64,000 bases of DNA from Chryseobacterium camelliae. GTDB taxonomy: Bacteria; Bacteroidota; Bacteroidia; Flavobacteriales; Weeksellaceae. The stretch is taken from contig NZ_CP115859.1 of the NCBI RefSeq assembly GCF_027920545.1, forward strand, positions 2,040,001-2,104,000. The letters run 5' to 3'. Shown here piece by piece: positions 19,580-34,606 of the stretch (position 1 is its first letter; each line of letters starts with the position of its first letter). Both the position numbers and the translations under genes were made by a program. The notes under the pieces are model-generated. The model saw only the letters and a list, made by a program, of their open reading frames with translations, ran no database searches and was not told the DNA's origin.

Positions 19580-20704
19580 TTAATAAAATAAATTGGTGTA
19601 TTTCCTAAAAATGTACAACCTATCTCTTTTTGAGCCCGTCATTTCCTTTATTATTTCTAATTTTTCTAATTCTTCTAAAAGTTTATATACAGAAGGAAGT
19701 GATAATCCGGTTACTTCTTTGGCTTTCTGTGCATCAAATATTGGATGCTGATACAAATGTGTAATTAATGCATTTGCTTTATTTGCTCTATTTCCTAAGG
19801 CTTGAACTTTGTTATCAACTTCTTTTTGTAGCTTCAAGATACTGTCAAATGTTGTAATCCCTTTTTTAGCAGTTTCAATAATTCCTACCAAAAAAAATTT
19901 AAACCATTGTATAATATCATTTTTTTCCCTTACTCTCATTAGATTATCATAATATAACGTTCTGTTTCTTTCAAAAAAAGCAGATAGATATAGTATTGGT
20001 TTTTTTAAAATCCCTTTTTCCACAAGATAAAGAGTAATCATCAATCTTCCTACTCTTCCGTTTCCATCTAAAAAGGGATGGATAGTTTCAAACTGATAAT
20101 GAATTAAAGCTATCTTTAGCAGTTCAGGAAAAAAATAATCTTCGTTATGCACAAATTTTTCCAGATCATTCATATAATCATTAATCGTAGAATATACTGG
20201 TGGAATAAAGGTTGCATCACTCAAACTTGCTCCTCCAATCCAATTTTGACTGGTTCTGAACTCTCCAGGAAGTTTATGCTTTCCTCTGACTCCTTGTAAT
20301 AATATTTTATGAGTTTCTTTGATCATTCTCGAAGAGAAAGGTAATTTTTCTAGATTCGAAATTGCAGAATTCAAGGCTGTTATATAATTCTGGACTTCTT
20401 CCCAATCATCTCTTTTTTCTTCTGATAAATCCTCTTTTTCCAATAAAGCTTCTTCAATATTTGTCTTTGTTCCTTCAATTTTACTTGATTCCGTTGCTTC
20501 TTTAAGAACGTGCATACTTATAAAAAGATCAATATTCGGGATATATTCCGAATACATATCTAATCTGCCTATTTGTCTATCTGCCTGACTAAGAAGATTT
20601 AAAAGATCCATATCTTCCAAAGTCCATTTTTTATTAATAAACTCCGGTTGAAAACTTTTATATGAATTTTGTTTAATGTAAATCCCTGCCTTGAAATCCT
20701 TCAT
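19580..20704 (-). CDS. Fic family protein (class II, self-inhibited) with C-terminal winged helix
   Basis: The 374-aa protein has the Fic motif HPFLDGNGRVGR at residues 209-220, with His209 as catalytic base for AMP transfer from ATP. An N-terminal inhibitory motif S73-x3-E77-G78 (ESSKIEGT) marks class II Fic proteins. The C-terminus (ITHLYQHPIFDAQKAKEVTG, LSLPSVYKLLEELEKLEIIK) is a winged helix-turn-helix. Target proteins are unknown. The promoter region contains two nearly identical palindromic boxes, so autoregulation by the winged helix is plausible. The ATG at 20704 is preferred over an in-frame TTG at 20722. Confidence 0.92.
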   Translation of the reverse strand: MKDFKAGIYIKQNSYKSFQPEFINKKWTLEDMDLLNLLSQADRQIGRLDMYSEYIPNIDLFISMHVLKEATESSKIEGTKTNIEEALLEKEDLSEEKRDDWEEVQNYITALNSAISNLEKLPFSSRMIKETHKILLQGVRGKHKLPGEFRTSQNWIGGASLSDATFIPPVYSTINDYMNDLEKFVHNEDYFFPELLKIALIHYQFETIHPFLDGNGRVGRLMITLYLVEKGILKKPILYLSAFFERNRTLYYDNLMRVREKNDIIQWFKFFLVGIIETAKKGITTFDSILKLQKEVDNKVQALGNRANKANALITHLYQHPIFDAQKAKEVTGLSLPSVYKLLEELEKLEIIKEMTGSKRDRLYIFRKYTNLFY

Positions 20705-20736
20705 GAGAAAAAATTTAACCAAAGATAATTATTATT

Positions 20737-20820
20737 TAAGTTTTTACCATTTTTTTTAATTAGTGAAATTCACTAATTAAGTTTTTACCATTTTTTTTAA
20801 TTAGTATTATAGCTAATTAA
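20737..20820. promoter_or_regulatory. Duplicated palindromic box in the fic promoter
   Basis: A 28-bp sequence occurs identically at 20737-20764 and 20778-20805 (period 41 bp). Each copy runs into a palindrome. The first, at 20756-20780, has 12-bp perfect arms TTAATTAGTGAA and its complement around one base. The second, at 20797-20820, has 8-bp arms TTAATTAG and CTAATTAA around 8 bp. The array ends 33 bp upstream of the fic ATG. It looks like a two-site operator. Confidence 0.65.
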
Positions 20821-21014
20821 CTTTATTATGATAATATTATCGATTTTATCCTCCCTTACAATGGAAGATTGGCTTTGTATAAAATTACTACAAATATTGG
20901 AGAAGAGGGGAGAAAACCTTCTATTAAATTTTTAAAATATAAAAGGATTCTATGGGAAATAATAGACTGGTAAATTCTATTGGACAATGCAAAGGTATAA
21001 AATAAAAAATAAAT
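20821..21014. other. Gene-free spacer between fic and rpiB
   Basis: About 190 bp of AT-rich DNA without a convincing reading frame. It would contain the rest of the fic promoter. I see no RNA gene here. The rpiB terminator follows at 21015. Confidence 0.5.
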
Positions 21015-21042
21015 AAGGCTTGTAATATGATTTACAAGCCTT
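21015..21042 (-). terminator. Intrinsic terminator of rpiB
   Basis: AAGGCTTGTAA (21015-21025) pairs with TTACAAGCCTT (21032-21042) around a 6-nt loop; on the minus strand it is followed by a T-rich tail. It begins 8 nt past the rpiB stop. Confidence 0.85.
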
Positions 21043-21050
21043 TATTGTTT

Positions 21051-21485
21051 TTAGCAAACTGCGATTTTATCAACTCTGTTCTGGTGTCTTCCACCTTCAA
21101 AATTTGTAGAAAGAAATTTGTTTGCAATTTCTATCGCTACTTCTTTTGCAATGAATCTTGCCGGGATTGAAATCATATTGGCATCATTATGCTGTCTTGC
21201 CAATTCAGCAATTTCAGGCATCCAGCAAAGCGCGCAACGGATTTTCTGGTGTTTATTGGCAGTAATCTGAACTCCGTTTCCGCTTCCGCAGATTAAAATT
21301 CCAAGTTCATTTTCTCCGTTTTCTACTGAAGTCGCTGCAGGATGTACAAAATCCGGATAATCAACACTGTCTGTAGAAAAAGTTCCGAAATCCTGAACTT
21401 CAAAGTTTTCTTCTAAATGTTTGATCAGGATCTGTTTGTATTCAAAACCCGCATGATCTCCTGCAATAGCAATTTTTCTTTTCAT
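21051..21485 (-). CDS. rpiB: Ribose 5-phosphate isomerase B
   Basis: The 144-aa protein begins MKRKIAIAGDHAGFEYKQIL and has the phosphate loop ICGSGNGVQITANK and CCWMPEIAELARQHNDANMI, all typical of RpiB/LacAB. It interconverts ribulose 5-phosphate and ribose 5-phosphate in the pentose phosphate pathway. Length is normal. It stands alone, with its own terminator. Its upstream side is the 1.2-kb gene-free region that holds the putative replication origin. Confidence 0.95.
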   Translation of the reverse strand: MKRKIAIAGDHAGFEYKQILIKHLEENFEVQDFGTFSTDSVDYPDFVHPAATSVENGENELGILICGSGNGVQITANKHQKIRCALCWMPEIAELARQHNDANMISIPARFIAKEVAIEIANKFLSTNFEGGRHQNRVDKIAVC

Positions 21486-22059
21486 TTTTACTTTTATTTT
21501 TATCTACTGTAATTAATTCTTTTTGGCAAAGTTACGTTAAATCCGAATTTAATCAACTTTGTTTCATTAGGTTTTATATTAAATTCCAAGTAAGAAATCC
21601 TGAGCTTTCATTCCTGAGCCATACTGTCAGCATTTATTACTTATACTTCAGCTGTTGAGGGTGAATCTGATCTATAGTTTAGGATTATGTTATTATCCCT
21701 ATTATTTTTAATCATTGTTTGTAAAATAACCTCAAATTTCCCTATCACCTATATCTTTAGTTTTATTGTCTTTTAATTCTCTTTTCCAAATACTCCTGAA
21801 TCAATTACTAAAAACAAATCAGTATTTCATTAGTTAAGTAACTGAGATTAATTTTCACAGTTTTGATTAGTATATTTCTCCATACAAAAACCCGTATTGT
21901 ATGAAGATTATCTGGAGAAAAGGATTGTTTTATAATTCCACTGTTGCAATAGATTCTTACCTCTTTTATATTGAAGTGATCACTATATAATTTTCCTGCC
22001 CAAAGCACCTGAAAACAACAATAATAAAGCCATTAGGTTGATTTTCAACCTATTTATTT
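21486..22059. other. Gene-free region left of the putative origin
   Basis: About 570 bp of AT-rich DNA. The only reading frame of note (21808-22008, minus, 66 codons) has no recognisable family and a Cys/Ile/Lys composition expected of random AT-rich DNA, so I do not call it a gene. No tRNA-like fold or repeat stands out. Confidence 0.5.
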
Positions 22060-22440
22060 TTTAGAATTTGAAAATTTTCACTTATTAACGAATTGTTAGT
22101 TAAATTCTGATTAACTGTTAAAAGCATTGTGAATAAGTGTGGATAACTTCGCTAAAAATAATGTTTTTTTAATTCGTGAAAATTTGTAATGGAATTTCTT
22201 CCAAAAAAATTGATTCCCAATTTTTAAAAACTTTTTTTCAACTAATCATGAGATTTTCCATAAATCGGTTATTAATAAAGACAATTGGGGAAAAGTTATC
22301 AATATTTGTTAGTAACGAAGTGAAAAATCACATTTCCAGGAAATTATAATGTAAATAAAATGTGAATTGAATAAAAATTCCATGTTATGAAATTTTCATC
22401 AAAAAGTTATCCCCTAAACTCACATCACTCAACAACAATA
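22060..22440. other. oriC: Putative chromosomal replication origin (oriC)
   Basis: This AT-rich non-coding stretch holds a perfect DnaA box TGTGGATAA at 22138-22146. Directly beside it, 1 nt away in the same orientation, is TGTGAATAA (22128-22136), one mismatch from consensus. Two weaker boxes on the other strand are TTATCAATA (22296-22304) and TTATCCCCT (22407-22415). All but the TGTGAATAA box share an AAGTTATC-type core. Tracts such as TTATTAACG and long A/T runs could unwind. Two parS sites lie 3-5 kb to the right, flanking mnmG (gidA), a gene often found at origins. Nearby genes fit a change of strand bias. Skew analysis has not been done. Confidence 0.55.
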
Positions 22441-22524
22441 GCGTATTCTTTTTTTTAAAAGAAAAAAAATGTTGATTAATGAGTGTTGGGTTTGCGGGAA
22501 ATTTTTTTGAAAACTTTTATCAGG

Positions 22525-22560
22525 TTGCGGCTTTTCAAAAATTTTAAAATCTTACATTTG
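22525..22560 (+). promoter_or_regulatory. Probable pgk promoter
   Basis: TACATTTG at 22553-22560 matches the Bacteroidetes -7 consensus TAnnTTTG. A TTG at 22525-22527 lies 25 nt upstream, slightly longer than the usual 17-23. The transcript would have a leader of about 100 nt, including an unusually GC-rich stretch at 22609-22650 with a CCCG-GAGG-CGGG hairpin. Confidence 0.5.
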
Positions 22561-22667
22561 TGAAAAGAAAAATTCAATGGTATTTGTGAAATTGGCTCTA
22601 CAAAATTTCCCGGAGGCGGGGAGTCTTGGAATGCAGGCTTCATGGGTATAGAAAATAAAAAGTATAT

Positions 22668-23858
22668 ATGAAAACAATCAATGACTTCAATTTTAATGGT
22701 AAAAAAGCTCTTGTAAGGGTAGATTTTAATGTTCCTCAGGATGATCAGCTGAAAGTAACAGATAATACAAGAATTGTTGCTGTAAAACCTACAGTTGATA
22801 AAATTCTTAAAGACGGAGGATCTGTAATTTTAATGGCTCACCTTGGAAGACCAAAAGGAGAAGTAAAAGATGAGTTTTCGTTGAGACATATTATAGAGGA
22901 AGTTTCTAATGTATTAGGTCAGGAAGTTAAGTTTGTAGACGAATGTGTAGGAGAAAAGGCTGAAAAAGCTGCTTCTGAGCTCAATTCGGGAGAGATCCTG
23001 TTATTAGAAAACCTTCGTTTTCATAATGAAGAAGAAAAAGGAGACGAGGTGTTTGCTGAGCAACTTTCAAAATTAGCCGATGCTTATGTAAATGATGCTT
23101 TCGGAACTGCACATAGAGCGCATGCTTCGACAGCTGTAATTGCTAAATTTTTTCCTTCAACTAAATTTTTCGGTTTATTGATAGCTAAAGAGCTTCAGGC
23201 GATCGATAAAGTTTTGAAAAGTGGGGAACGTCCTGTAACTGCGATACTTGGAGGATCTAAAGTTTCTACTAAAATTACTATTATAGAGAATGTTTTACCT
23301 GCAGTTGATAACTTAATTATCGGTGGCGGAATGGCATTTACATTTATCAAAGCTCTTGGGGGTAAGATCGGAAGCTCTTTAGTGGAAGAGGATAAATTAC
23401 CATTAGCTCTTGAAATTTTAGGAAAAGCTAAAGAGCATAATGTAAAAGTATACCTTCCTTCTGATGCGATCATCGCTGATAGTTTCAGTAACGATGCGGA
23501 AAGAAAAGAAGTAGATATCTATGCTATTCCTGAAGGATGGATGGGATTGGATGCAGGTGCAAGATCAAGAGATCAGTTTAATGATGTGTTGTTAAATTCA
23601 AGAACCATTCTTTGGAATGGCCCTATCGGAGTTTTTGAAATGTCAAACTTTGCCGGTGGAACTGTTGCTCTAGGAGATAGTATTGCTGAAGCAACGAGAC
23701 AAGGTGCTTTCTCTTTAGTGGGAGGAGGAGACAGTGTAGCTTTCGTAAAACAATTCGGTTACGGTGACAAAGTAAGTTATGTTTCTACCGGAGGAGGGGC
23801 AATGCTTGAAAGTCTGGAAGGTCTTGAACTTCCCGGTGTTGCTGCAATTAATAACTAA
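22668..23858 (+). CDS. pgk: Phosphoglycerate kinase
   Basis: The 396-aa protein is full length. It shows [22 protein letters not shown] for 3-phosphoglycerate binding, [23 protein letters not shown] and the nucleotide loop [15 protein letters not shown]. It makes ATP from 1,3-bisphosphoglycerate in glycolysis. The gene is the only rightward one between 13.7 and 33 kb and has its own promoter and terminator. Codons look highly adapted, in keeping with strong expression. Confidence 0.98.
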
Positions 23859-23874
23859 GGCTAAAAAATACATT

Positions 23875-23906
23875 GAAAGTCTGCTATACAATAGCAGACT
23901 TTTATT
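23875..23906 (+). terminator. Intrinsic terminator of pgk
   Basis: AAAGTCTGCTA (23876-23886) pairs with TAGCAGACTTT (23892-23902) around TACAA and is followed by a T-rich run. Confidence 0.9.
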
Positions 23907-24023
23907 TTTCTATTCTAAATTTCCCAAATTTCTTTGGTATGTCTTTACTTTTGGCTGTTTGCTTTGCCTAAAATAAAATTTTCTTGAAAATTTTTGGGCT
24001 TTCTCTGTCTGTTGTACTGTATT

Positions 24024-24186
24024 ATTAATTAAAAATAAATCTATGCGATTCTCAGAGGCTTAGTTTATCCTTTTGGCTATAACCTAATTCCTGAATCAGT
24101 TTGATCTTTTCAAATTATACTATTTCATTTCTTCTGTATCGTATAGAAATTAATTAAAAAAAATCTATGAGATTCTCAGGCTCTTA
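24024..24186. repeat. Two imperfect direct repeats in the pgk-methyltransferase spacer
   Basis: A block of about 38 bp with ATTAATTAAAAA, then ATCTATG, then GATTCTCAG and CTTA, occurs at 24024-24062 and 24149-24186, about 125 bp apart. The rest of the 560-bp spacer (23907-24332) shows no gene. It may be a relic of a duplicated or mobile non-coding element. Confidence 0.45.
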
Positions 24187-24332
24187 ATTTTAGAAATAAA
24201 ATATTTTCTTTTTCTACTCATTAGATTACTTATTAACATATTACCCATATTTTTAAAGATTAATATTTAGTTTTTATATTTTAGAAAAATATTAATTTGA
24301 AAATAGAGTAGGGGGATTGGTTTAACAAAATA

Positions 24333-24360
24333 AAAAACTCAGAAATTTTTCTGAGTTTTT
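24333..24360. terminator. Bidirectional intrinsic terminator
   Basis: AAAAACTCAG (24333-24342) pairs with CTGAGTTTTT (24351-24360) with an A/T loop that can extend the stem. It lies 60 nt beyond the stop of the leftward methyltransferase gene. Confidence 0.75.
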
Positions 24361-24419
24361 AGTTTTTGTACTGAAAATGTGAAAAACTGACCCTTAGAAA
24401 TAGGTCAAAAATCGATTTT

Positions 24420-25241
24420 CTATTTTTTTTCGATAATATAGATCAAACTTGAAAATTCGTTAGAAAAAAGGGCTTTTACGTTGGAAATCGTTCCGTAGAT
24501 CATTGCTTTTAGCCAAAATAGAGATGATTTCTTGTATTTTTCGCTTAACATCGAAATATAATAGGAGTCAAGAACCAGTGGTTTTATTTTTCTCATTTTC
24601 CAACCTGGTTTCTTTGCAATCAGATTTTCCATTCCGCTTTTTGAGAAATGGTAGATGTGTCTTGGTACATCATAAGCCGCCCAATATTCTTTATAATGTT
24701 TTGCATCGTAAGAAGTAGGGTTGGGAACTGCGATAATTAACAGTCCTTTTTCTTTTAATTTATTATTGAAAATATTAAGCATTTCATCCTGATTTTCCAC
24801 GTGCTCGAAGACATGCCAAAGAGTAATTGCATCTAAACTTTGATCTTCAATAGTATTAATATTATCTAAAATGGCAGCTTTTGAAATCTTATTTTTTGCT
24901 GCTTTTCTGGCATCTGAATCCGGTTCAAACCCAAAAGTTTCAAAATCATTTTCTATGAATTTTACAAATTCTCCGGCACCACATCCATAATCCAATACCC
25001 TTGAACCTTTATTAATTCTGTCCAGCAATATTGTTTTTTTGTACTGTAAATTGAATGACTGTAAAAATTTGTAAAGCTTTTCTTTTAAACTTCCTGAATC
25101 CTGATGATGGGAAATATAATCTTCACTTTCATAATATTTGGAAATATTGGATGGAATAGGGGAGGTTTTGAATACTCCTTTTGTTTCTGTTTCTTTGATT
25201 TCAAATATTTCCTGTGAAAGAAAATGATCTTTTATTTTCAT
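24420..25241 (-). CDS. Class I SAM-dependent methyltransferase
   Basis: The 273-aa protein has the SAM-binding loop RVLDYGCGAGEFVKFIE, then FGFEPDSDARKAAK, ITLWHVFEHVENQDEMLN and LIIAVPNPTSYDAKHYKEYW, a Methyltransf_23/UbiG-like pattern often seen in surface-polysaccharide or lipid methylation. The substrate is unknown. Transcribed leftward from a region just beyond a parS site, it is probably a separate unit from mnmG. Confidence 0.87.
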   Translation of the reverse strand: MKIKDHFLSQEIFEIKETETKGVFKTSPIPSNISKYYESEDYISHHQDSGSLKEKLYKFLQSFNLQYKKTILLDRINKGSRVLDYGCGAGEFVKFIENDFETFGFEPDSDARKAAKNKISKAAILDNINTIEDQSLDAITLWHVFEHVENQDEMLNIFNNKLKEKGLLIIAVPNPTSYDAKHYKEYWAAYDVPRHIYHFSKSGMENLIAKKPGWKMRKIKPLVLDSYYISMLSEKYKKSSLFWLKAMIYGTISNVKALFSNEFSSLIYIIEKK

Positions 25242-25333
25242 TGAATTTGTTTCTTTTAACTCATAAAAATTAAGATATTTAGAGTTTTAGAATAAGCTCA
25301 TAAATACCTTAATTTTCGTTTTTATTTTATCTA

Positions 25334-25349
25334 TGTTTCACGTGAAACA
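25334..25349. other. parS: parS centromere site (downstream of mnmG)
   Basis: TGTTTCACGTGAAACA is a perfect 16-bp palindrome identical to the broadly conserved chromosomal parS consensus bound by ParB. It lies 9 nt beyond the mnmG stop codon, between mnmG and the methyltransferase gene. Confidence 0.9.
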
Positions 25350-25357
25350 TTTTGTAT

Positions 25358-27220
25358 TTAACGTCCTAAATAGACCAGTAAAACGTTTATATCAGCAGGT
25401 GAAACACCACTGATTCTTCCTGCCTGAGCAATTGTTTTTGGTTTTACATTTGACATCTTTTGTTTGGCTTCTGCAGACAGACTTGATATTTTTGTATAAT
25501 CAAAATCTTCAGGAATTTTGATGTTTTCTAAACGATTGAGTTTGGCTACATTTTCTTTTTCCTTTTCTATATAACCTCTATACTTGATATTTACTTCAGC
25601 CTGCTCTCTTACTTCATCATCATAGGTAGAAGAAACCTCATTAATAAAGTCGATTCCATCCAGCTTTTCTAATGTCATATTAGGTCTTGTAAGGATCTGA
25701 GCTGCTCTGTAAGCCTGATCAACAGGGCTACTTTCAATAGTTTCAAGAATAGGATTGATTACTCCCGGTTTTAAAGAAGTTTCCCGAAGGAAGTTCTCAA
25801 GTTCTTCACTTTTAGCTACTTTTTCGTTTACTCTTTGTAGCCTGTCTTCTTTTGCCAAACCTAGATCAAAAGCTTTTTGAGTAAGTCTGATATCTGCATT
25901 ATCCTGTCTTAAAAGAAGTCTGTATTCAGCTCTGGAAGTGAACATTCTGTAAGGCTCTTCCGTACCTTTTGTGATCAAATCATCAATTAATACTCCAATA
26001 TAAGCTTCGTCTCTATTAAGAATAAATTCATCCTTTTCTTTTACTTTATTATGTGCATTGATCCCTGCAATGAGACCTTGTCCGGCTGCTTCTTCATAAC
26101 CGGTTGTACCGTTAATTTGCCCTGCAAAGTATAAATTATCGATCAGTTTTGTCTCTAAAGTATGCTTTAATTGGGTAGGAGGGAAGTAGTCATATTCAAT
26201 AGCATAACCCGGACGGAATACCTTTACGTTCTCAAATCCAGGAATATGTTTCATTGCTTTGATCTGAACATCTTCAGGAAGGGAAGAGCTGAATCCGTTT
26301 ACATAGATTTCTATCGTTTTCCAGCCTTCCGGTTCTACGAATAGCTGATGTCTGTTTCTCTCCGCAAAACGGTTGATTTTATCTTCAATACTCGGACAAT
26401 ATCTAGGTCCTAAACTTTGAATCGTCCCATTGAACATGGGACTTCTATCGAATCCTTCACGTAAAATATCGTGTACAATTTCGTTTGTATAAACGATATG
26501 ACAACTTAATTGTTTGGTTAACTTGGGCGTGTCTAAATAGCTGAATTTTTGAGGATTTTCGTCTCCTTTTTGTTCTTCCATTTTAGAATAATCCAAGCTT
26601 CTACCATCTACTCTCGGTGGAGTACCTGTTTTCATTCTTCCGGCTTCAAAACCTAGTGAAACGAGTTGTTCGGTGATACCAAAAGCTCTTGGTTCACCCA
26701 TTCTTCCGCCTCCTAATTGCTTATCTCCAACATGAATTAAACCATTTAGGAAAGTACCGTTTGTAAGAACTACAGAACGTCCTTTTATCTCAATTCCTAA
26801 TGAAGTAACAACTCCTACTACCTTGTTATTCTCTATGATAAGCTGTTTTACCATATCCTGAAAGAAGTCAAGATTTGGAGTGTTTTCTAATGCTAACCGC
26901 CATTCTTCTGCAAAAAGCATTCTATCGTTCTGTGTTCTTGGAGACCACATTGCAGGACCTTTGGAAAGGTTTAGCATCTTGAACTGTATAGCTGATTTGT
27001 CCGCTACAATCCCGGAATAACCTCCCATTGCGTCGATTTCCCTTACAATCTGTCCTTTTGCAATTCCGCCCATTGCAGGGTTACAGCTCATCTGTCCGAT
27101 AGTCTGCATATTCATCGTAATAAGCAGAGTTTTCGAACCCAGATTGGCTGCTGCAGCTGCTGCTTCACATCCTGCGTGACCGGCACCAACTACGATTACA
27201 TCATATATTTCTGAAATCAT
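25358..27220 (-). CDS. mnmG: MnmG (GidA), tRNA uridine 5-carboxymethylaminomethyl modification enzyme
   Basis: The 620-aa protein is full length. It has the FAD-binding start YDVIVVGAGHAGCEAAAAAA, then CNPAMGGIAKGQIVREIDAM, GLIHVGDKQLGGGRMGEP, GQINGTTGYEEAAGQGLIAG and a helical C-terminal MnmE-binding domain. With MnmE it installs cmnm5 on the wobble uridine of certain tRNAs. gidA is a classical origin-proximal gene. Here both flanks carry a perfect parS palindrome, and the putative oriC is 3 kb away. Confidence 0.98.
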   Translation of the reverse strand: MISEIYDVIVVGAGHAGCEAAAAAANLGSKTLLITMNMQTIGQMSCNPAMGGIAKGQIVREIDAMGGYSGIVADKSAIQFKMLNLSKGPAMWSPRTQNDRMLFAEEWRLALENTPNLDFFQDMVKQLIIENNKVVGVVTSLGIEIKGRSVVLTNGTFLNGLIHVGDKQLGGGRMGEPRAFGITEQLVSLGFEAGRMKTGTPPRVDGRSLDYSKMEEQKGDENPQKFSYLDTPKLTKQLSCHIVYTNEIVHDILREGFDRSPMFNGTIQSLGPRYCPSIEDKINRFAERNRHQLFVEPEGWKTIEIYVNGFSSSLPEDVQIKAMKHIPGFENVKVFRPGYAIEYDYFPPTQLKHTLETKLIDNLYFAGQINGTTGYEEAAGQGLIAGINAHNKVKEKDEFILNRDEAYIGVLIDDLITKGTEEPYRMFTSRAEYRLLLRQDNADIRLTQKAFDLGLAKEDRLQRVNEKVAKSEELENFLRETSLKPGVINPILETIESSPVDQAYRAAQILTRPNMTLEKLDGIDFINEVSSTYDDEVREQAEVNIKYRGYIEKEKENVAKLNRLENIKIPEDFDYTKISSLSAEAKQKMSNVKPKTIAQAGRISGVSPADINVLLVYLGR

Positions 27221-27267
27221 CTTTTTATTGCTTGTTTTAAGCCTTAAATTTTAATCTTTTCTATAAA

Positions 27268-27283
27268 TGTTTCACGTGAAACA
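27268..27283. other. parS: parS centromere site (upstream of mnmG)
   Basis: A second exact copy of the palindrome TGTTTCACGTGAAACA lies in the 118-bp spacer between ybeY and mnmG, 48 nt upstream of the mnmG start. ParB binding there could affect mnmG transcription. Confidence 0.9.
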
Positions 27284-27338
27284 TTGTTTTGAAATACGCA
27301 CTAAAATAGCTTGTATTGCGGTTTATTTAGCTTCTTAT

Positions 27339-27746
27339 TTAATTGTATTTAGCTAAATAATGATCTTCTTTTTCTCGCATTCCTTTTTCTTCTTCTTCTG
27401 TTTTATCTTTGTATCCACAAAGATGAAGAATACCGTGAGCCAAAACTCTTCTCAGTTCTTCTTCATAATCTTTGGCTAGGGTAGAAGCGTTATCTGAAAT
27501 TCGCTGCAAAGATACAAAAATCTCTCCGCTTATTGTTTTTCCTTTCACATAGTCGAAAGTGATGATGTCTGTATAGTAGTCATGCTGTAAATAATCCTGA
27601 TTTACTTTCAATAAATATTCGTCGTCGCAGAAAATATAATTGATTTCACCAAGTTTTTTTCCTTCTGAAAGAATAATGTCCTTCAGCCAAGCTGTATAGT
27701 CTGTATTTACAGATTCCGGTAAGTTTTCGTAAAAGAATTGTATCAT
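27339..27746 (-). CDS. ybeY: YbeY, rRNA maturation endoribonuclease
   Basis: The 135-aa protein is a normal YbeY. The strand GEISFVSL-type core (SGEIFVSLQRI) is followed by the metal motif AHGILHLCGYKDKT near residues 105-118. Two His ligands are present, but the canonical third His (GYDH) is replaced by GYKD; I recall this variant from other Bacteroidetes. YbeY takes part in 16S rRNA 3' maturation and ribosome quality control. It starts 4 nt after the patatin gene stop, so it belongs to the murF-alr / patatin / ybeY operon. Confidence 0.93.
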   Translation of the reverse strand: MIQFFYENLPESVNTDYTAWLKDIILSEGKKLGEINYIFCDDEYLLKVNQDYLQHDYYTDIITFDYVKGKTISGEIFVSLQRISDNASTLAKDYEEELRRVLAHGILHLCGYKDKTEEEEKGMREKEDHYLAKYN

Positions 27747-27750
27747 TGTT

Positions 27751-29910
27751 TTAAAACCAGTGTCCTAAAATAACACTGAATATGCCTTTTTGATTATTTT
27801 TAAGTGAATGACTAAAATTAAGTTTTATTTGTCCAAAAGGAGATTTATAGCCTGCCGTAATTCCCAGCGAACTATAATTTAACTTTACTGCATCTTCAAA
27901 ACTAATATCGTCTGATAGGTTTGCAAAAGAGAAATTTCCGCTGAGGAAATAGTTTTTATTAAACTTAAATTGAACATCGTTGGAAATTAAAATTACATTA
28001 TTGGTATTCAGCTGAGCAAAATTAAATCCTGCAAAGCTTTTAAAATTAACAACATTTTGTTCGAAAATTCCTCCTAATCTGTATTGATAGAATGGAGGAA
28101 GGGTTTCGCCGATTGTAATTCCACCATATAGATTAAGACGATAGCTAAAGTATTTTGTCAACGGGATATTAATTCTGATATCTGCTTTTACCTGAACCTG
28201 TCTTTTTTCTACCTCAGATTTTAGCAGATCTAAAACTTTTCCTTCAGCGTTGATGTAAATACCTCGGGTAGGAAAGTCCTTATCGTTTTGAGTATCGCTC
28301 TTCAAAAAGATATAAGGGTTCAGGAAACGATTAATTCTTTTATTTAAACCATTGGATTCTGCTTCAAAATAATCATTGCTTAATCCTCCGCCAATAGCAA
28401 ATTTATCCTTCCAGATGGATTGGATGTAAATTTCATTTCTGAGCCATTCCCATTTATCTATATCGTAGTTATTAATATCTCTTAGAGTGAAGCTCATTCC
28501 TGATGAATAGATTCCTAACCCAGGGATATAGCCGTTATCGATAAAATAGTTGAGATAGTATCTCGGCTGGTCACCTACAACAACATCTAAGGATAGATTG
28601 GTATTTTTAAATAAAAGACGCTTTGCAGAATAATTTAAGAGTAATCCTGTTTTGAAAATTTCGTCATAATGTAATCCGAATTTCAAAAAGTGACGGGTTT
28701 CATCTTCCGTTACATATAATTTGAGGTAATTGGCGTCGTTTTCAGGAACAATATCATAATTTATAAACCGATAATTATTCGTGGCAATTAATTTGTCAAT
28801 TTTTTTATTGATACTTCCGTAAGTTTGAAGAGAGGGGAGACGCAGTCCCATTTTCCCTAGGACATAGTTTTTACCGTAAATTTTCCCTCCGATTATCGAA
28901 ATATTGTCTATCTTATAGACATTGGAATAAATAGGGTTTATTTGTTGTCTGAGACGGTCAAACGGCCGCTTGGGTAACTGATCCAGAATATCAACGTATT
29001 TTATACCTTCAACAAACCCACTATCCAGAATTTTTTTCTTGTCATCATAGCTTGTTGCAGTCATACCTTTTAGGTTGGGCTTGATGTTGATGTCGGTGTA
29101 TTTATACTGTCTTCTGGTATCTTTTTTAATTCCGAAATCGATCACCTGATTTAAAATCGCTATAATATTGTTTAAATCCTCTCTTTTTGAAAGATCCTGG
29201 TTGAGATCCACCCCAATCACGATATCGATTCCTTTGTCCTTTAATGGCTTCGAAGGGTAATTAACGGACATTGCTCCGTCAATATAAATACTGTCACCAA
29301 TTTTTACAGGATCCATTAATGAAGGAAACGCTGAGCTTGCCATGATAGACTGTACCAGATCTCCTTTTTCAAAAATCTCCATATTCCCGCTTTCCAAATT
29401 GGTGGCAACGCACATAAAAGGAATGGGAAGCTTTGAGAAATCATCAATGTTTGAAACGTTCTTAAAAAGCTCTTTAAGCAAGTAAACATTTTTCTGTCCA
29501 GTGCTTATGGAGGATGGGAGGGTAATTTTTCCGTTTTTTAAAGGGATTGATAAAAGATATTTGTCAACGGATTTATTGTAGAACGTAGTTTCCTGGCGTT
29601 TTGCTTTAGGATCCATGATCAATGAATAGAAATCCGTATCCATTACAATCTTTTCGATTTCTTTTCCGGAATATCCTGAAGCGTACAATCCTCCTACGAT
29701 CGCTCCCATACTGGTTCCGGCAATATAATCTACTTTTACTCCTAAGGAATCTAATACTTTAAGTACTCCTACATGAGAAAATCCTTTAGCACCGCCACCG
29801 GCAAGAGAAAGTCCTATTCTGGGATTCTTCGGAATTACCAAATCTTTCTTTACCTGAGACTGAATTAATAGCAGCTGAAATGCAAATAAAATGATCAGGA
29901 GTTTTCTCAT
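27751..29910 (-). CDS. Patatin-like phospholipase with BamA-type outer-membrane barrel
   Basis: The 719-aa protein begins MRKLLIILFAFQLLLIQSQ (signal peptide). Next is a patatin domain: GLSLAGGGAKGFSHVGVLKV for the oxyanion hole, GTSMGAIVGG with the nucleophile Ser, and IDGAMSVNYPSK with the catalytic Asp. A POTRA-like linker and a C-terminal barrel of the bacterial surface antigen type follow, ending in LNFSHSLKNNQKGIFSVILG and terminal HWF. The arrangement is that of type Vd autotransporters such as PlpD and FplA. It probably hydrolyses lipids at the outer membrane. It lies 4 nt after murF-alr in one operon. Confidence 0.9.
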   Translation of the reverse strand: MRKLLIILFAFQLLLIQSQVKKDLVIPKNPRIGLSLAGGGAKGFSHVGVLKVLDSLGVKVDYIAGTSMGAIVGGLYASGYSGKEIEKIVMDTDFYSLIMDPKAKRQETTFYNKSVDKYLLSIPLKNGKITLPSSISTGQKNVYLLKELFKNVSNIDDFSKLPIPFMCVATNLESGNMEIFEKGDLVQSIMASSAFPSLMDPVKIGDSIYIDGAMSVNYPSKPLKDKGIDIVIGVDLNQDLSKREDLNNIIAILNQVIDFGIKKDTRRQYKYTDINIKPNLKGMTATSYDDKKKILDSGFVEGIKYVDILDQLPKRPFDRLRQQINPIYSNVYKIDNISIIGGKIYGKNYVLGKMGLRLPSLQTYGSINKKIDKLIATNNYRFINYDIVPENDANYLKLYVTEDETRHFLKFGLHYDEIFKTGLLLNYSAKRLLFKNTNLSLDVVVGDQPRYYLNYFIDNGYIPGLGIYSSGMSFTLRDINNYDIDKWEWLRNEIYIQSIWKDKFAIGGGLSNDYFEAESNGLNKRINRFLNPYIFLKSDTQNDKDFPTRGIYINAEGKVLDLLKSEVEKRQVQVKADIRINIPLTKYFSYRLNLYGGITIGETLPPFYQYRLGGIFEQNVVNFKSFAGFNFAQLNTNNVILISNDVQFKFNKNYFLSGNFSFANLSDDISFEDAVKLNYSSLGITAGYKSPFGQIKLNFSHSLKNNQKGIFSVILGHWF

Positions 29911-29914
29911 AGGC

Positions 29915-32362
29915 TTAATCTTTTATATAAATCCGTTTCACCCGGGGTGAAATTGAGGTTAATACTTCATAGGTTATCGTTTTGCAGTAGTCTGCGAATT
30001 CTTTAAGACTCGGATAAGCATTAAATACCGTCACCGTATCGCCTTCCTTTACATTGGGAATATGATCTATATTGATCATCATCATATCCATGCAAATGCT
30101 TCCTACAATGGGGGCTAACGTTTTGTTTATGCCGACATTTCCTACCTGATTTCCAATTAGTCTTGGTATTCCGTCTGCATATCCTACAGGAATGGTGGCG
30201 ATTTTTGTTTTATGATCCGTTTTAAATCTTCTGCTATAACCTATTGATTCACCGATTTCTACTACGGATATTTGAGAAATAACTGTTTTAAAGCTTACAA
30301 CAGATCGTAACTGTTTTTGTATTTCACTATTTGGTGATTCACCTAACATTCCGATTCCAATTCTTACCATGTCGTATTGGTGATCGGTATAACTTGTTAT
30401 TCCTGATGAATTTAAAATATGTCGGATAGGAGTATAGCCTATTTTATCAATTAAATACCTTGAATTTTTTTCAAATGTTTTCAGCTGATTGAAAGTAAAT
30501 TCTTTCTCTTCCGGTATATCAGAAGATGAAAGGTGGCTGAAAATACTTTGAACCTTAAGATTTTTATGATCTAAAGTCTGGCTTAACTGATCTAGCTCAT
30601 AATCTTTAAAACCAAGACGATGCATTCCTGTTTCCAACTTGATGTGGATAGGATATTTTTTATCATAGCCGGACTTTTGAACCGCTTCATAAAACAATTC
30701 TAAAACCCTGAAGCTATAGATTTCAGGCTCCAAATTATATTCGATTACTGTCTCATAGCTGTGCTGTTCGGGGTTCATAACAACAATTGGAACGGTAATT
30801 CCTTTTTTACGAAGCTCTACGCCTTCATCTACGAAAGCAACACCCAGATAGTCGATATGATGGTGTTGTAAGAATTCTGAAATTTCATAACTTCCTAAAC
30901 CATAAGAATTTGCCTTTACCATCGCCATCATTTTAGTGGTTGGTTTCAGCAGGGATTTGTGATAATTGATGTTATGCAAAATAGCATTCAGATTGATTTC
31001 TAAAACCGTATCATGCTTTCTCAGTTCAAGAACATCTTTAAGCTTTTCGATTTCAAACTTTCTGGCTCCTTTCAGAAGAATGATTTGATTTTCAATTTCT
31101 GTAAGATGTTTACTTTCAATTAATTCTTTAGTATTGATGAAAGTATAAGTTTTAGCTTTAAATAATTCACTGAAATATGATATTTCATGACCAATTAAGA
31201 AAACGGAATCGAATTTTTGCTCATTTACCAAATCGGAAACTTCTTGGTACAATTCTTTTGAATTTGAGTTTACACCAACAATATCCGTTAGCACTAAAGA
31301 TTTCTTCGGTTTATTGTACTCCTTTAAAAATTGAAGGGCGGTTTTCAAAGAATCCAGATCGAGGTTGAAAGAATCATTAATTATGATGTTGCTTTTAATT
31401 CCTTCTATGGCTTCAAGCCTCATTTCAACAGCCTTCAGAGCGTTGATTTTTTCGACGATCTTTTGATTTTCGACTCCTATCTCCTTTAAAACCGTTACAA
31501 GCGCCAAAGCATTGGTTAATGTCGCTTCGTCCCTTTGATGAACGGGAAAAGAAATTTCTTCACCAAAATACTGCACAACAACGTTGTCTTCTTTTGAAAT
31601 ATTGTTTTTAAAGGAAACTTGGTTACTTTCTTTAAAACCGTAAGAAATTAATTTTTTACTTAAATATAAATCCTTTATTTTTTTGTCAACCAGTGAATTA
31701 TCACCGTTGTAAATAATGATTTCGGAATGTCTGAAAAGTTTAATTTTTTCATCAATCAATTCTTCCTCAGATTTGAAATTGGCAAGGTGGGCGGTTCCAA
31801 TATGGGTCAACAAACCGATCTTTGGATGGAAAATCTTTTCGAGCTTATCCATTTCATCAGGTTTGGAAATTCCGACTTCAAAAATTCCCAGTTCATGAGA
31901 AGTATTGATTTGAAGCAAAGAAAGGGGAAGTCCGATCTGGGAATTGAAACTTTTCGGGCTTTTAACCGTAGGAAATTCATTCCAAAGACATTGATACAGC
32001 CATTCTTTTAAAATGGTTTTTCCGTTGCTTCCCGTAATTCCGATAGATTGTAAATGGGTATTTTCAAAATGAAATTGGGCTAATTTTTGAAGAAAGTCAA
32101 CAGAATTTTCAACAATAATCCAGGTTATCCCTTCAAACTGAAGATACTGATGTTCGGAGATAATAATGGTAATGCCTTTGTCAATGGCAGATTCAATGAA
32201 TTTTTCTCCCGAATTTTTAGGGGTGTTGATAGCAATAAATGCAGTGTTCCTGACAGAATAAATAATTCTGCTGTCAAAAGCTATATTTTTGATAATTAAT
32301 TCTCTGTCTCCAATAACTTTAGCATTGGTGATCTCTGCAATTTGATTTACTGTATAGTTCAT
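29915..32362 (-). CDS. Bifunctional MurF ligase / alanine racemase fusion
   Basis: The 815-aa protein fuses two cell-wall enzymes. The N-terminal half is a MurF-type ligase (SIGITGSNGKTILKEWLYQC, P-loop) that adds D-Ala-D-Ala to UDP-MurNAc-tripeptide. The C-terminal half, from about residue 450, is an alanine racemase with PLP-lysine motif MAMVKANSYGLGS and catalytic-Tyr region IGYSRRFKTD, which supplies D-alanine. This fusion is characteristic of Bacteroidetes. I start at the ATG at 32362 (MNYTVNQIAEIT); an ATG 48 nt upstream (32410) adds residues encoded by an intergenic CACAAAG-type repeat. Confidence 0.95.
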   Translation of the reverse strand: MNYTVNQIAEITNAKVIGDRELIIKNIAFDSRIIYSVRNTAFIAINTPKNSGEKFIESAIDKGITIIISEHQYLQFEGITWIIVENSVDFLQKLAQFHFENTHLQSIGITGSNGKTILKEWLYQCLWNEFPTVKSPKSFNSQIGLPLSLLQINTSHELGIFEVGISKPDEMDKLEKIFHPKIGLLTHIGTAHLANFKSEEELIDEKIKLFRHSEIIIYNGDNSLVDKKIKDLYLSKKLISYGFKESNQVSFKNNISKEDNVVVQYFGEEISFPVHQRDEATLTNALALVTVLKEIGVENQKIVEKINALKAVEMRLEAIEGIKSNIIINDSFNLDLDSLKTALQFLKEYNKPKKSLVLTDIVGVNSNSKELYQEVSDLVNEQKFDSVFLIGHEISYFSELFKAKTYTFINTKELIESKHLTEIENQIILLKGARKFEIEKLKDVLELRKHDTVLEINLNAILHNINYHKSLLKPTTKMMAMVKANSYGLGSYEISEFLQHHHIDYLGVAFVDEGVELRKKGITVPIVVMNPEQHSYETVIEYNLEPEIYSFRVLELFYEAVQKSGYDKKYPIHIKLETGMHRLGFKDYELDQLSQTLDHKNLKVQSIFSHLSSSDIPEEKEFTFNQLKTFEKNSRYLIDKIGYTPIRHILNSSGITSYTDHQYDMVRIGIGMLGESPNSEIQKQLRSVVSFKTVISQISVVEIGESIGYSRRFKTDHKTKIATIPVGYADGIPRLIGNQVGNVGINKTLAPIVGSICMDMMMINIDHIPNVKEGDTVTVFNAYPSLKEFADYCKTITYEVLTSISPRVKRIYIKD

Positions 32363-32491
32363 TGGTGCCCTGTCTGCTGCTATTTTGTGTTTAGTATTTT
32401 TTGTCATCACAAAGACACAAAGAATTTTATTAATGCATCATTGTGTTTTAACAAAACAAATTTTATTTCAGATTTCTATTTTAAATCTAAT
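32363..32491. repeat. CACAAAG-type degenerate repeat in the tdk to murF-alr spacer
   Basis: The 129-bp spacer contains CACAAAGACACAAAG around 32408-32422 and a nearby inverted-like CATTGTGTTTTAAC. Similar sequences occur in other spacers of this window (around 42128 and 60750-60910), suggesting a dispersed degenerate family. Confidence 0.4.
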
Positions 32492-33085
32492 TTACTTATT
32501 TTTCTTTTTCAAAAGCACTTCATCAATAAAAACACGGCGGCTTACTGCTTCGTAGCTTTCTGTTTCACCTAATTCAACCAAATTATCGCCCTGAGAAATT
32601 CTCATGGAATAATTCGCCAGATTACCTGTTCTCTTGCAAATAGCATGCACTTTTGTAACATATTCTGCCGTTGCCATCAGATTGGGCATTGGCCCGAACG
32701 GACGTCCTAAAAAATCCATATCCAACCCTGCTATTACGACTCTTATTCCGCTATTCGCAAGCTGATTGGCCACATCTACGATACCCTGATCAAAAAACTG
32801 GGCTTCATCAATTCCGATCACATCACAATTGGATGCCAATAAAAGAATTTCATTAGGATTTTCTACCGGTGTGCTTCGGATTTTATTCTGATTGTGAGAA
32901 ATTACATCTTCTTCGGAATAGCGTGTATCCAGTTTTGGTTTAAAAATTTCCACATTTTGCCCCGCCATTTCTGCTCTTCTCAGCCTTCGGATCAACTCTT
33001 CGGTTTTTCCGGAAAACATTGAGCCACAAATAACTTCCATCCAACCGCTTTGTTTGGAGTGATTAATTGTATTTTCTAAAAACAT
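32492..33085 (-). CDS. tdk: Thymidine kinase
   Basis: The 197-aa type II thymidine kinase has the P-loop EVICGSMFSGKTEELIRRL, the GIDEAQFFD magnesium/catalytic region and the FLGRPFGPMPNLMA substrate region. It phosphorylates thymidine in the salvage pathway. The lasso zinc site looks reduced: AICKRTGN holds one Cys where the family usually has CxxC. The gene opens the leftward block and is divergent from the acidic repeat protein gene. A TACTTTTG box lies in its upstream region on the minus strand. Confidence 0.95.
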   Translation of the reverse strand: MFLENTINHSKQSGWMEVICGSMFSGKTEELIRRLRRAEMAGQNVEIFKPKLDTRYSEEDVISHNQNKIRSTPVENPNEILLLASNCDVIGIDEAQFFDQGIVDVANQLANSGIRVVIAGLDMDFLGRPFGPMPNLMATAEYVTKVHAICKRTGNLANYSMRISQGDNLVELGETESYEAVSRRVFIDEVLLKKKNK

Positions 33086-33145
33086 TTGTTAAATTAGCCG
33101 TATATTTTTCAGATCAAAAGTAAGCAATTTTAATAAGATTCTTAT

Positions 33146-34606
33146 ATGCAGAACATCCAAGATTTAAAGGAAAAAATTTTTTTTGAATCCAAGAATATCA
33201 TTGATATTTTGGAGAAAATAAATAATGTAGATGAATTACTTTCCAAGCAGGATCTTGTGGATGAACTTGCTAACAGAATTTCTTTTTTGAGGCTGCTCGA
33301 AAAGAATATTGAGTATTTTATTCCCGAAAATACCTCTCCAGTTTCAGAAAATCATGAGCTTAACAGCAATGAAACCATTGAAGAAGAAGCAATTTTCAAT
33401 AACGAACTGAATGAAATTGATGAAAAGGAAGAAAACTTCACAGAAAATGTTGAAGAAGAAGAGGCTGTTTTTAATAATCAGCTCAACGAAATTACCGAAA
33501 ATGATTATCACGAAAATATCGTAAGCTTTATAGGTGAAAATCTTGAGTCTAAATCTTCTGATAATGAGTCTTCTAATTCATCGAACGATCATAAAACATC
33601 AGAGGAAATTGTTTTTAATGAGCAGCTGCAGGAAATAGAAGAAAGTACTCTTTCCGAATATCATGAGAGTACATTGGATTTCGTAGATGAAGAACGAATT
33701 CTTGCAGATGCGGTACCGGATAATACTGAAGATATTTCTGAAGAAATGTTTGACCAGAGAGTTACCGAGGAAGAAGCTATTTTTAATAATCAATTGAATG
33801 AAATTGATGAATTTGACAATAAGCTTGAGGAGGATTTTAATGAGGAAGAAAATAAAGTGACCCACGAATCTTTTGAAGTTAAAGAGACGATTCCGAGTAT
33901 TTTTGATACGGAAATCTTTGAAGAAGAAGGTATTTTGATCGAAGAGGATGAAGATCAGTATTTGGTGGGAAATGCAGCTATGGAGCAGGGCGAAATGGCA
34001 ACAGATACTTCCAATGTAGAAAATATCTTGGATGAAATAAAGCATGAGGATTCAAATTCGGAAGAACAGGAAGAACTGGTCTTTGAAGAAGAGAGAAGAA
34101 GAGGGAAAATCGTGGATTTTGAAACTCCGGTTTCTGTAACAGAAAAAGAAAAACCAGCTTCTGACGAAAGTTTTGAAAATCTGGAAAAATATCATCAGGA
34201 TAAGAAAATCAGACTGGCCAATATCAGAGGATTAAAGGCCGTTCAGACACTTTTTGATGATGATCACCTGGAAACAGAAAATATTCAGGAAAAATCTAAA
34301 GAAATACAGAAAGAAGATACGGGAAGTCTGTTGAAAACGAATATTCCAACAGATTATATGGAGAAAGAAAAAGAAAAATCGAAGCCCGAATTTAAGCTGG
34401 ATTTAAATGACAGGATTGCATTTTCGAAAATGCTGTTCGGAGGAAGTCAGTCTGAGCTTAATGAGGTAATCGCAGATCTGAACAGCTTTAAAAACTTGGA
34501 GCAGGCAAAGGAATACCTGAGTGATCTGTATTACGATAAAAAATGGAGTAATGTCGATGAATATGCTCAGAGACTATGGATATTGGTAGAAAATAAATTT
34601 TTATAA
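33146..34606 (+). CDS. Acidic protein with four EEEAIFNNQLNEI-type repeats, function unknown
   Basis: I do not recognise a named family. The 486-aa protein has no signal peptide. An N-terminal helical part (1-60) is followed by a very acidic, probably disordered middle containing four copies of a short motif (79-92, 104-117, 152-165, 208-221) of the form EE-[AI]-[IV]-F-N-x-[QE]-L-x-E-I. The last 70 residues (LDLNDRIAFSKMLFGG, then LSDLYYDKKWSNVDEYAQRL) look like a conserved folded domain. The repeats suggest linear binding sites for a partner. It is 2 nt upstream of rsmI and probably cotranscribed. Confidence 0.75.
   Translation: MQNIQDLKEKIFFESKNIIDILEKINNVDELLSKQDLVDELANRISFLRLLEKNIEYFIPENTSPVSENHELNSNETIEEEAIFNNELNEIDEKEENFTENVEEEEAVFNNQLNEITENDYHENIVSFIGENLESKSSDNESSNSSNDHKTSEEIVFNEQLQEIEESTLSEYHESTLDFVDEERILADAVPDNTEDISEEMFDQRVTEEEAIFNNQLNEIDEFDNKLEEDFNEEENKVTHESFEVKETIPSIFDTEIFEEEGILIEEDEDQYLVGNAAMEQGEMATDTSNVENILDEIKHEDSNSEEQEELVFEEERRRGKIVDFETPVSVTEKEKPASDESFENLEKYHQDKKIRLANIRGLKAVQTLFDDDHLETENIQEKSKEIQKEDTGSLLKTNIPTDYMEKEKEKSKPEFKLDLNDRIAFSKMLFGGSQSELNEVIADLNSFKNLEQAKEYLSDLYYDKKWSNVDEYAQRLWILVENKFL

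Follow-up and report, generated by a model that had tools for sequence, protein, structure and literature searches.

In ParABS systems, ParB nucleates at the parS site, slides outward as a CTP clamp and is moved by ParA. We take gidA (mnmG) to be a neighbour of parAB in Bacillus subtilis and in many Proteobacteria. According to a passage of PMC7022226, parAB and parS lie close to oriC in most species, and the "origin genes" listed in an excerpt of PMC2099444 include parA, parB, gidA and gidB. In part of the text of PMC10197239, clusters of parS were the guide to the ori of 12 gut bacteria, including Bacteroides caecimuris and Muribaculum intestinale; the same part describes an ori that does not systematically track dnaA among these 12 genomes, and reports that no known condensin was found in two gut Bacteroidetes. 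Noc is a homologous DNA-binding protein with a related palindromic site, NBS, and its residues Q158, K164, K169 and R186 occupy the positions that switch specificity from parS to NBS, as stated in an extract of PMC7383237.

The locus described here, from Chryseobacterium camelliae, resembles the Soj-Spo0J-type ParABS of B. subtilis and Caulobacter in its 16-bp consensus, in the motifs of its ParB and ParA and in its location near a putative origin. Unlike in the usual systems, parAB lies ~ 985 kb from the sites. Set against the 12 gut bacteria, as far as the excerpted part of PMC10197239 describes them, the address at mnmG and the distance to parAB are additions. The element itself is of a known kind; it is the layout that is notable. 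Judging from sequence features, we consider the two palindromes presented below to form the parS centromere of the chromosome, with a probability of roughly 95%, and for brevity we refer to them as parS sites 1 and 2.

Two identical palindromes flank mnmG

The chromosome is a single contig of 3,437,155 bp. The window, i.e., the whole 64,000-nt stretch of DNA that was analysed, corresponds to its positions 2040001–2104000, and coordinates below are those of the window unless the genome or a locus is named. The first-pass annotation had described a 16-bp palindrome occurring exactly twice, once on each side of mnmG and both times in non-coding DNA. Our scan of the window with TGTTTCACGTGAAACA (16 bp) returned the same two exact copies, at 25334–25349 and 27268–27283, and the positions of ORFs and domains likewise placed both in intergenic, non-coding DNA on either side of the gene. 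The features of the region are as follows.

22128–22146, minus strand: tandem DnaA boxes TTATCCACA-N-TTATTCACA (boxes at 22128–22136 and 22138–22146), part of the putative oriC
24420–25241, minus strand: SAM methyltransferase-like gene, adjoining parS site 1; a mere neighbour, outside the system
25262–25320, minus strand: probable intrinsic terminator of mnmG, an A/U-rich hairpin ending in a T-run, distinct from parS site 1
25334–25349, no strand assigned: putative parS site 1, 8 bp past the mnmG stop codon, between the methyltransferase ORF and mnmG
25358–27220, minus strand: mnmG (gidA), tRNA uridine-modifying enzyme (PF01134, E 1.4e-165; TIGR00136), bracketed by both parS sites
27268–27283, no strand assigned: putative parS site 2, in the gap that separates mnmG from ybeY, 47 bp 5′ of the mnmG start codon
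27339–27746, minus strand: ybeY, adjoining parS site 2

The best segment of the MnmG protein was 98% identical to MnmG of C. tagetis, C. taiwanense, C. gambrini and Chryseobacterium sp. ZHDP1.

Apart from the two exact copies, the window contained no match to TGTTTCACGTGAAACA at ≤ 3 mismatches. In 100 shuffles of the window, the mean number of such matches was 0.34, and two or more were found in 5 of the 100. Chromosome-wide, 26 places matched at ≤ 3 mismatches, namely the 2 exact copies and 24 with exactly 3; none of the 3,437,155 bp gave a place with 1 or 2 mismatches, and the reversed control pattern matched at 15 places under the same limit of ≤ 3. The whole-genome search thus revealed no scattered copies, as the first-pass annotation had predicted, and both sites are confined to 1.9 kb.

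Putative replication origin

The tandem DnaA boxes are contained in the rpiB–pgk intergenic region (21486–22667). The sites lie 3.2 and 5.1 kb from them, in keeping with the 3–5 kb given earlier. DnaA-box matches at ≤ 1 mismatch numbered 22 in the whole window vs 18.4 expected, which is no excess, so the weight rests on the adjacent pair and on its counterparts in relatives. These were examined in a set of 21 Chryseobacterium loci, comprising the window and 20 isolates; one MAG named Chryseobacterium (L191) was excluded. When the surroundings of the mnmG stop were scanned (about −8 to +6 kb), 59 of the 63 strict boxes proved to lie 2–5 kb downstream of that stop. The tandem pair was kept in 12 of the 21 loci, and the position of the first boxes relative to mnmG shifted by up to about 2 kb. 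The exact 19-bp tandem string was absent from all 170 other loci; degenerate scans did find boxes.

GC skew was sampled in 20 stretches of 8–16 kb plus the window. Positive values ran from 2.21 to 3.33 Mb, with one of just +0.008, and continued past the record start up to 0.34 Mb; the samples at 0.51 and 0.68 Mb were approximately zero, and those between 0.85 and 1.70 Mb were negative. The sample at 1.87 Mb (+0.034) was an exception, with the sign opposite to that expected. The skew thus switches sign in the vicinity of the window, and the samples for the most part agree with an origin there. Within the window, the cumulative skew had two lows, at ~ 20–22 kb and, lowest, at 31–33 kb, so the skew alone narrows the origin just to that stretch. 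The dnaA gene, at 97–1446 of the record, is separated from the putative origin by about 1.37 Mb, and the start of the record is therefore no marker of oriC. The parS sites at mnmG may be of use for placing origin and centromere from sequence in other genomes whose record starts at dnaA, away from the origin.

Two further features were seen during this survey. Near the putative origin, the window encodes a Fic/DOC family protein with a Fic_N domain (19580–20722, minus strand). Elsewhere in the genome, eight equal-scoring matches (at 892514, 1304905, 3117607, 3403488, 2785825, 2987063, 3398363 and 1734387), each in a 253-codon open frame, had weak DnaA/AAA similarity; our guess is that they may represent an insertion sequence's ATPase gene.

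Conservation of the sites at mnmG

In the 21 Chryseobacterium loci, all 16 parS columns were invariant at both places, and 16/107 and 7/87 of the other columns were invariant in the same alignments. The invariant stretch extended to 18 bp at site 1 (ATGTTTCACGTGAAACAT) and to 20 bp at site 2 (AATGTTTCACGTGAAACATT). The spacing between parS and mnmG was also narrow, with 43–50 bp on one side of the gene and 9–13 bp on the other. The excluded MAG had one mismatch in the downstream site. Four of 12 same-genus genomes had a single exact site only; in one genome (G043), the other site carried one mismatch.

Among named relatives, taken as the best 80 of 594 confirmed loci, 79 carried a site (≤ 2 mismatches) no more than 250 bp from mnmG, on both sides of the gene in 63. 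In the family sample, an exact site was present in 70 of 120 genomes, with one or two sites in each, and the reversed control gave 0. At ≤ 1 mismatch, a site was found in 122 of the 148 genomes of the phylum sample and the reversed control in 8/148. Per-genome site counts of both scans are complete.

A wider comparison covered 100 loci, made up of 20 family genomes, 14 of them chosen for having no exact site and the other 6 carrying one or more, and of a single genome from each of 80 phylum genera. The genera were hand-picked after the site counts had been seen, g104 was dropped as it offered no full mnmG, and our own genome was outside the set. A site with ≤ 2 mismatches lay within 250 bp of mnmG in 87 of these loci, representing 28 of 33 families, and in 37 loci mnmG had sites on both sides; the count of loci with a nearby site rose to 89 once the motif NGTTYCACGTGRAACN was also allowed. 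Sites were concentrated at mnmG, with 6.26 per kb in the nearest 100 bp vs 0.017 per kb at 3–6 kb. Common variants were altered at position 5, at position 12 or at both. Both positions were changed in 16 of 153 sites vs ~ 10 expected under independence, a mild excess that fits dyad symmetry, with neither relatedness nor the 2-mismatch limit corrected for. The centre of the palindrome (positions 7–10) was conserved in 150–151 of the 153 sites, no less than the arms.

Eleven loci had no site at 250 bp or less from mnmG. Three of them had one at 0.36–0.6 kb, and two had weak 3-mismatch sites at ~ 20 bp. In six of the 100 loci (G025, G155, G182, G209, G131 and G226), neither a site with ≤ 2 mismatches nor the degenerate motif was detected in the ~ 6-kb flanks of mnmG. 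G131, G226 and G182 have sites at ≤ 1 mismatch elsewhere in the genome; the same limit gave no site anywhere in the genomes of G155 and G209, and an exact search of G025 returned no site genome-wide.

Some relatives carry more sites. Four genomes of one family (f11: G122, G127, G168 and G176) have 6–7 parS-like sites each at ≤ 1 mismatch, and six loci, mostly named Flavobacterium (L228, L231, L234, L236, L239 and L243), have 5–6 sites at ≤ 2 mismatches within ~ 1.2 kb of mnmG. One of these, L236, is titled MAG: Limnohabitans sp. isolate MAG20, and its MnmG is 68% identical to the query, with Flavobacterium-like parS arrays; the betaproteobacterial label or the binning is probably wrong.

ParA, ParB and recognition residues

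A profile search of the genome gave a single ParB match, at 3.05 Mb, as the first-pass interpretation demanded; neither parA nor parB was recognized among the ten proteins scanned at 19580–34606. Directly upstream of parB lies a ParA-like ORF with KGGVGKTT (locus L035, 7348–8142). We take the order of ORFs at the 3.05-Mb locus to be a TonB-like gene, parA, parB, a DUF5683-like gene, dapB and lepB, where names other than parA and parB come from our reading of the translations. Presumably, the GERRFRA and ENIQRED segments of ParB and KGGVGKTT of ParA have the same meaning as these motifs have in ParABS proteins. ParB scored 172.7 bits against TIGR00180, above the cut-off of 58.45. The ParA-like protein passed no cut-off among the 25 models listed, and its best model was ParA_partition, with 114.1 bits (cut-off 180).

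The best NCBIfam model for ParB was that of Noc, a longer model, and the likeness to Noc (244.7 bits) agrees with the homology of the two proteins and with their related palindromic sites, as outlined in an excerpt of PMC7383237. Unlike Noc, which has Q/K/K/R, this ParB reads R/S/R/G at the positions of Noc Q158, K164, K169 and R186, counted along the Noc alignment and numbered as in the same excerpt. The residues would thereby assign the protein to the parS-specific RXXG class. A target of the Noc/NBS type was rejected on account of these residues and because the Noc cut-off of 315 was missed.

ParB was found in 115 of 120 family genomes and in all 148 genomes of the phylum sample. The five family genomes with no match were G038, G079 (genus g10), G013, G093 and G102. 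With a listed completeness of 99%, G038 may genuinely have lost ParB.

Just upstream of parA (L035:7229–7258; about 3,049,228–3,049,257 in the genome), two sequences resembling DnaA boxes form an inverted pair, TTATCCACA ... TGTGGATAA. DnaA may possibly control parAB through this pair.

PF02463 had 24 matches genome-wide. The three matches that were inspected corresponded to RecF (over its cut-off), a RecN-like protein (394.6, slightly short of its cut-off of 407.85) and an SbcC-like piece; two of the other 21 were in frames that exceeded the cut-off only when summed. With no Smc recognized among these 3 of 24, Smc is likely absent.

Proposed mechanism and alternative explanations

Computation established that the sites exist, that they are unique in the genome and conserved at mnmG, that ParA and ParB are encoded, that the recognition residues are of the parS type, and that the skew change and the DnaA boxes are close by. 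There are two exact copies of a 16-bp palindrome matching TGTTTCACGTGAAACA, clustered near the putative origin, with no other site at ≤ 2 mismatches; a cognate ParB has parS-type residues, and a ParA-like ORF is next to its gene. The origin-proximal chromosomal parS proposed in the first-pass annotation is thus supported from several sides, namely by skew, DnaA boxes, site conservation and ParB residues, insofar as sequence can support it. By analogy with other bacteria, the source for every step of binding, loading, spreading and movement given here, the single chromosomal ParB, encoded together with ParA far from the sites, most likely recognizes both of them as a dimer. It would load at parS as a CTP-dependent clamp, spread over mnmG and the neighbouring genes, and form a partition complex that ParA would move. 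As the sites are 3–5 kb from the putative origin, new copies of the origin would be the first to separate.

The short distances between the palindromes and the start and stop codons of mnmG in many genomes, in transcribed or promoter DNA, would also suit cis-regulatory elements of this gene, such as a repressor operator or a part of a terminator or of the 5′ leader, conserved through mnmG and not through segregation. We regard this as very unlikely. The palindrome is identical at both ends of the gene, its sequence TGTTTCACGTGAAACA is the published parS consensus as quoted in an extract of PMC10197239, and some genomes have sites at 0.3–2 kb from mnmG or in arrays. Moreover, the reading as a terminator is weakened by the separate hairpin with a T-run at 25262–25320, past the downstream site, which is itself the likely terminator: its RNA fold had −16.6 kcal/mol and z = −6.5, an equally stable fold occurred in 0 of 200 shuffles, and the region falls inside the downstream alignment of the 21 Chryseobacterium loci. 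No T-run follows the palindrome itself on the mnmG strand, and the would-be loop, i.e., the centre of the palindrome, is conserved at least like the arms. An operator or terminator was consequently rejected as the main explanation, on the basis of the conserved centre, the invariant columns and the separate hairpin. A palindrome that arose by chance is a practically negligible option. About 9 × 10⁻⁴ exact copies are expected per genome (first-order Markov model with the composition of the window), and the palindrome is unique to this place in the genome and conserved across genera and families, on which grounds chance was rejected.

It is also conceivable, if rather unlikely, that the sites are parS and that loaded ParB clamps additionally regulate the bracketed mnmG, which would keep the sites in place. 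The pairing with mnmG is tighter than proximity to the origin needs, given that the DnaA boxes shift by ~ 2 kb and parS stays put; in addition, P. aeruginosa ParB at a parS inserted in a test plasmid lowered expression of the adjacent genes, according to a passage of PMC7022226. However, gidA/mnmG is among the old origin-region genes in the excerpted part of PMC2099444, so that simple inheritance of the address could account for the pairing. We are likewise doubtful about the broader proposition that ParB clamps at both borders cover mnmG and couple occupancy of the centromere to mnmG expression, in a Bacteroidota centromere locked to mnmG, with remote parAB and no canonical Smc loading.

Distance between parS and parAB

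The usual closeness of parAB to parS and oriC was not found in our genome, and the same held for its relatives. The distance between mnmG and parB was at least 301 kb in 53 of 53 genomes measured, and 0.3–2.2 Mb overall; these genomes are related, and their distances are therefore no independent observations. It ranged from 532 to 2217 kb (median 985) in 29 single-contig family genomes, including our own, and from 301 to 2244 kb (median 767) in 24 further phylum genomes, of which 21 are single-contig and 3 are multi-contig assemblies in which mnmG and parB share a contig. The distances refer to the best-scoring ParB match, and in 22 of the 53 the length entered was a rounded value. In at least nine other multi-contig genomes, outside the 53, mnmG and parB were at least 477 kb apart on their contig, as read by eye.

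Taken together, these data describe a conserved "orphan centromere" layout, with a site at mnmG in most sampled relatives and the reader proteins encoded far off. In evolutionary terms, our best guess is that parS kept its old address beside gidA/mnmG while parAB moved. In the titles and abstract openings of the literature covered, which did not extend to the key survey of Livny et al. 2007, we recognized no account of parS at mnmG in Bacteroidota or of the parAB distance seen across the phylum sample; an earlier description may exist. The layout offers a natural test of whether ParABS can work with its operon away from its centromere, and of what holds parS at mnmG through most of the phylum sample. 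We must also note that one genome outside the 53 (G051) has a weaker second ParB match, of 68.8 bits, at 33 kb from mnmG.
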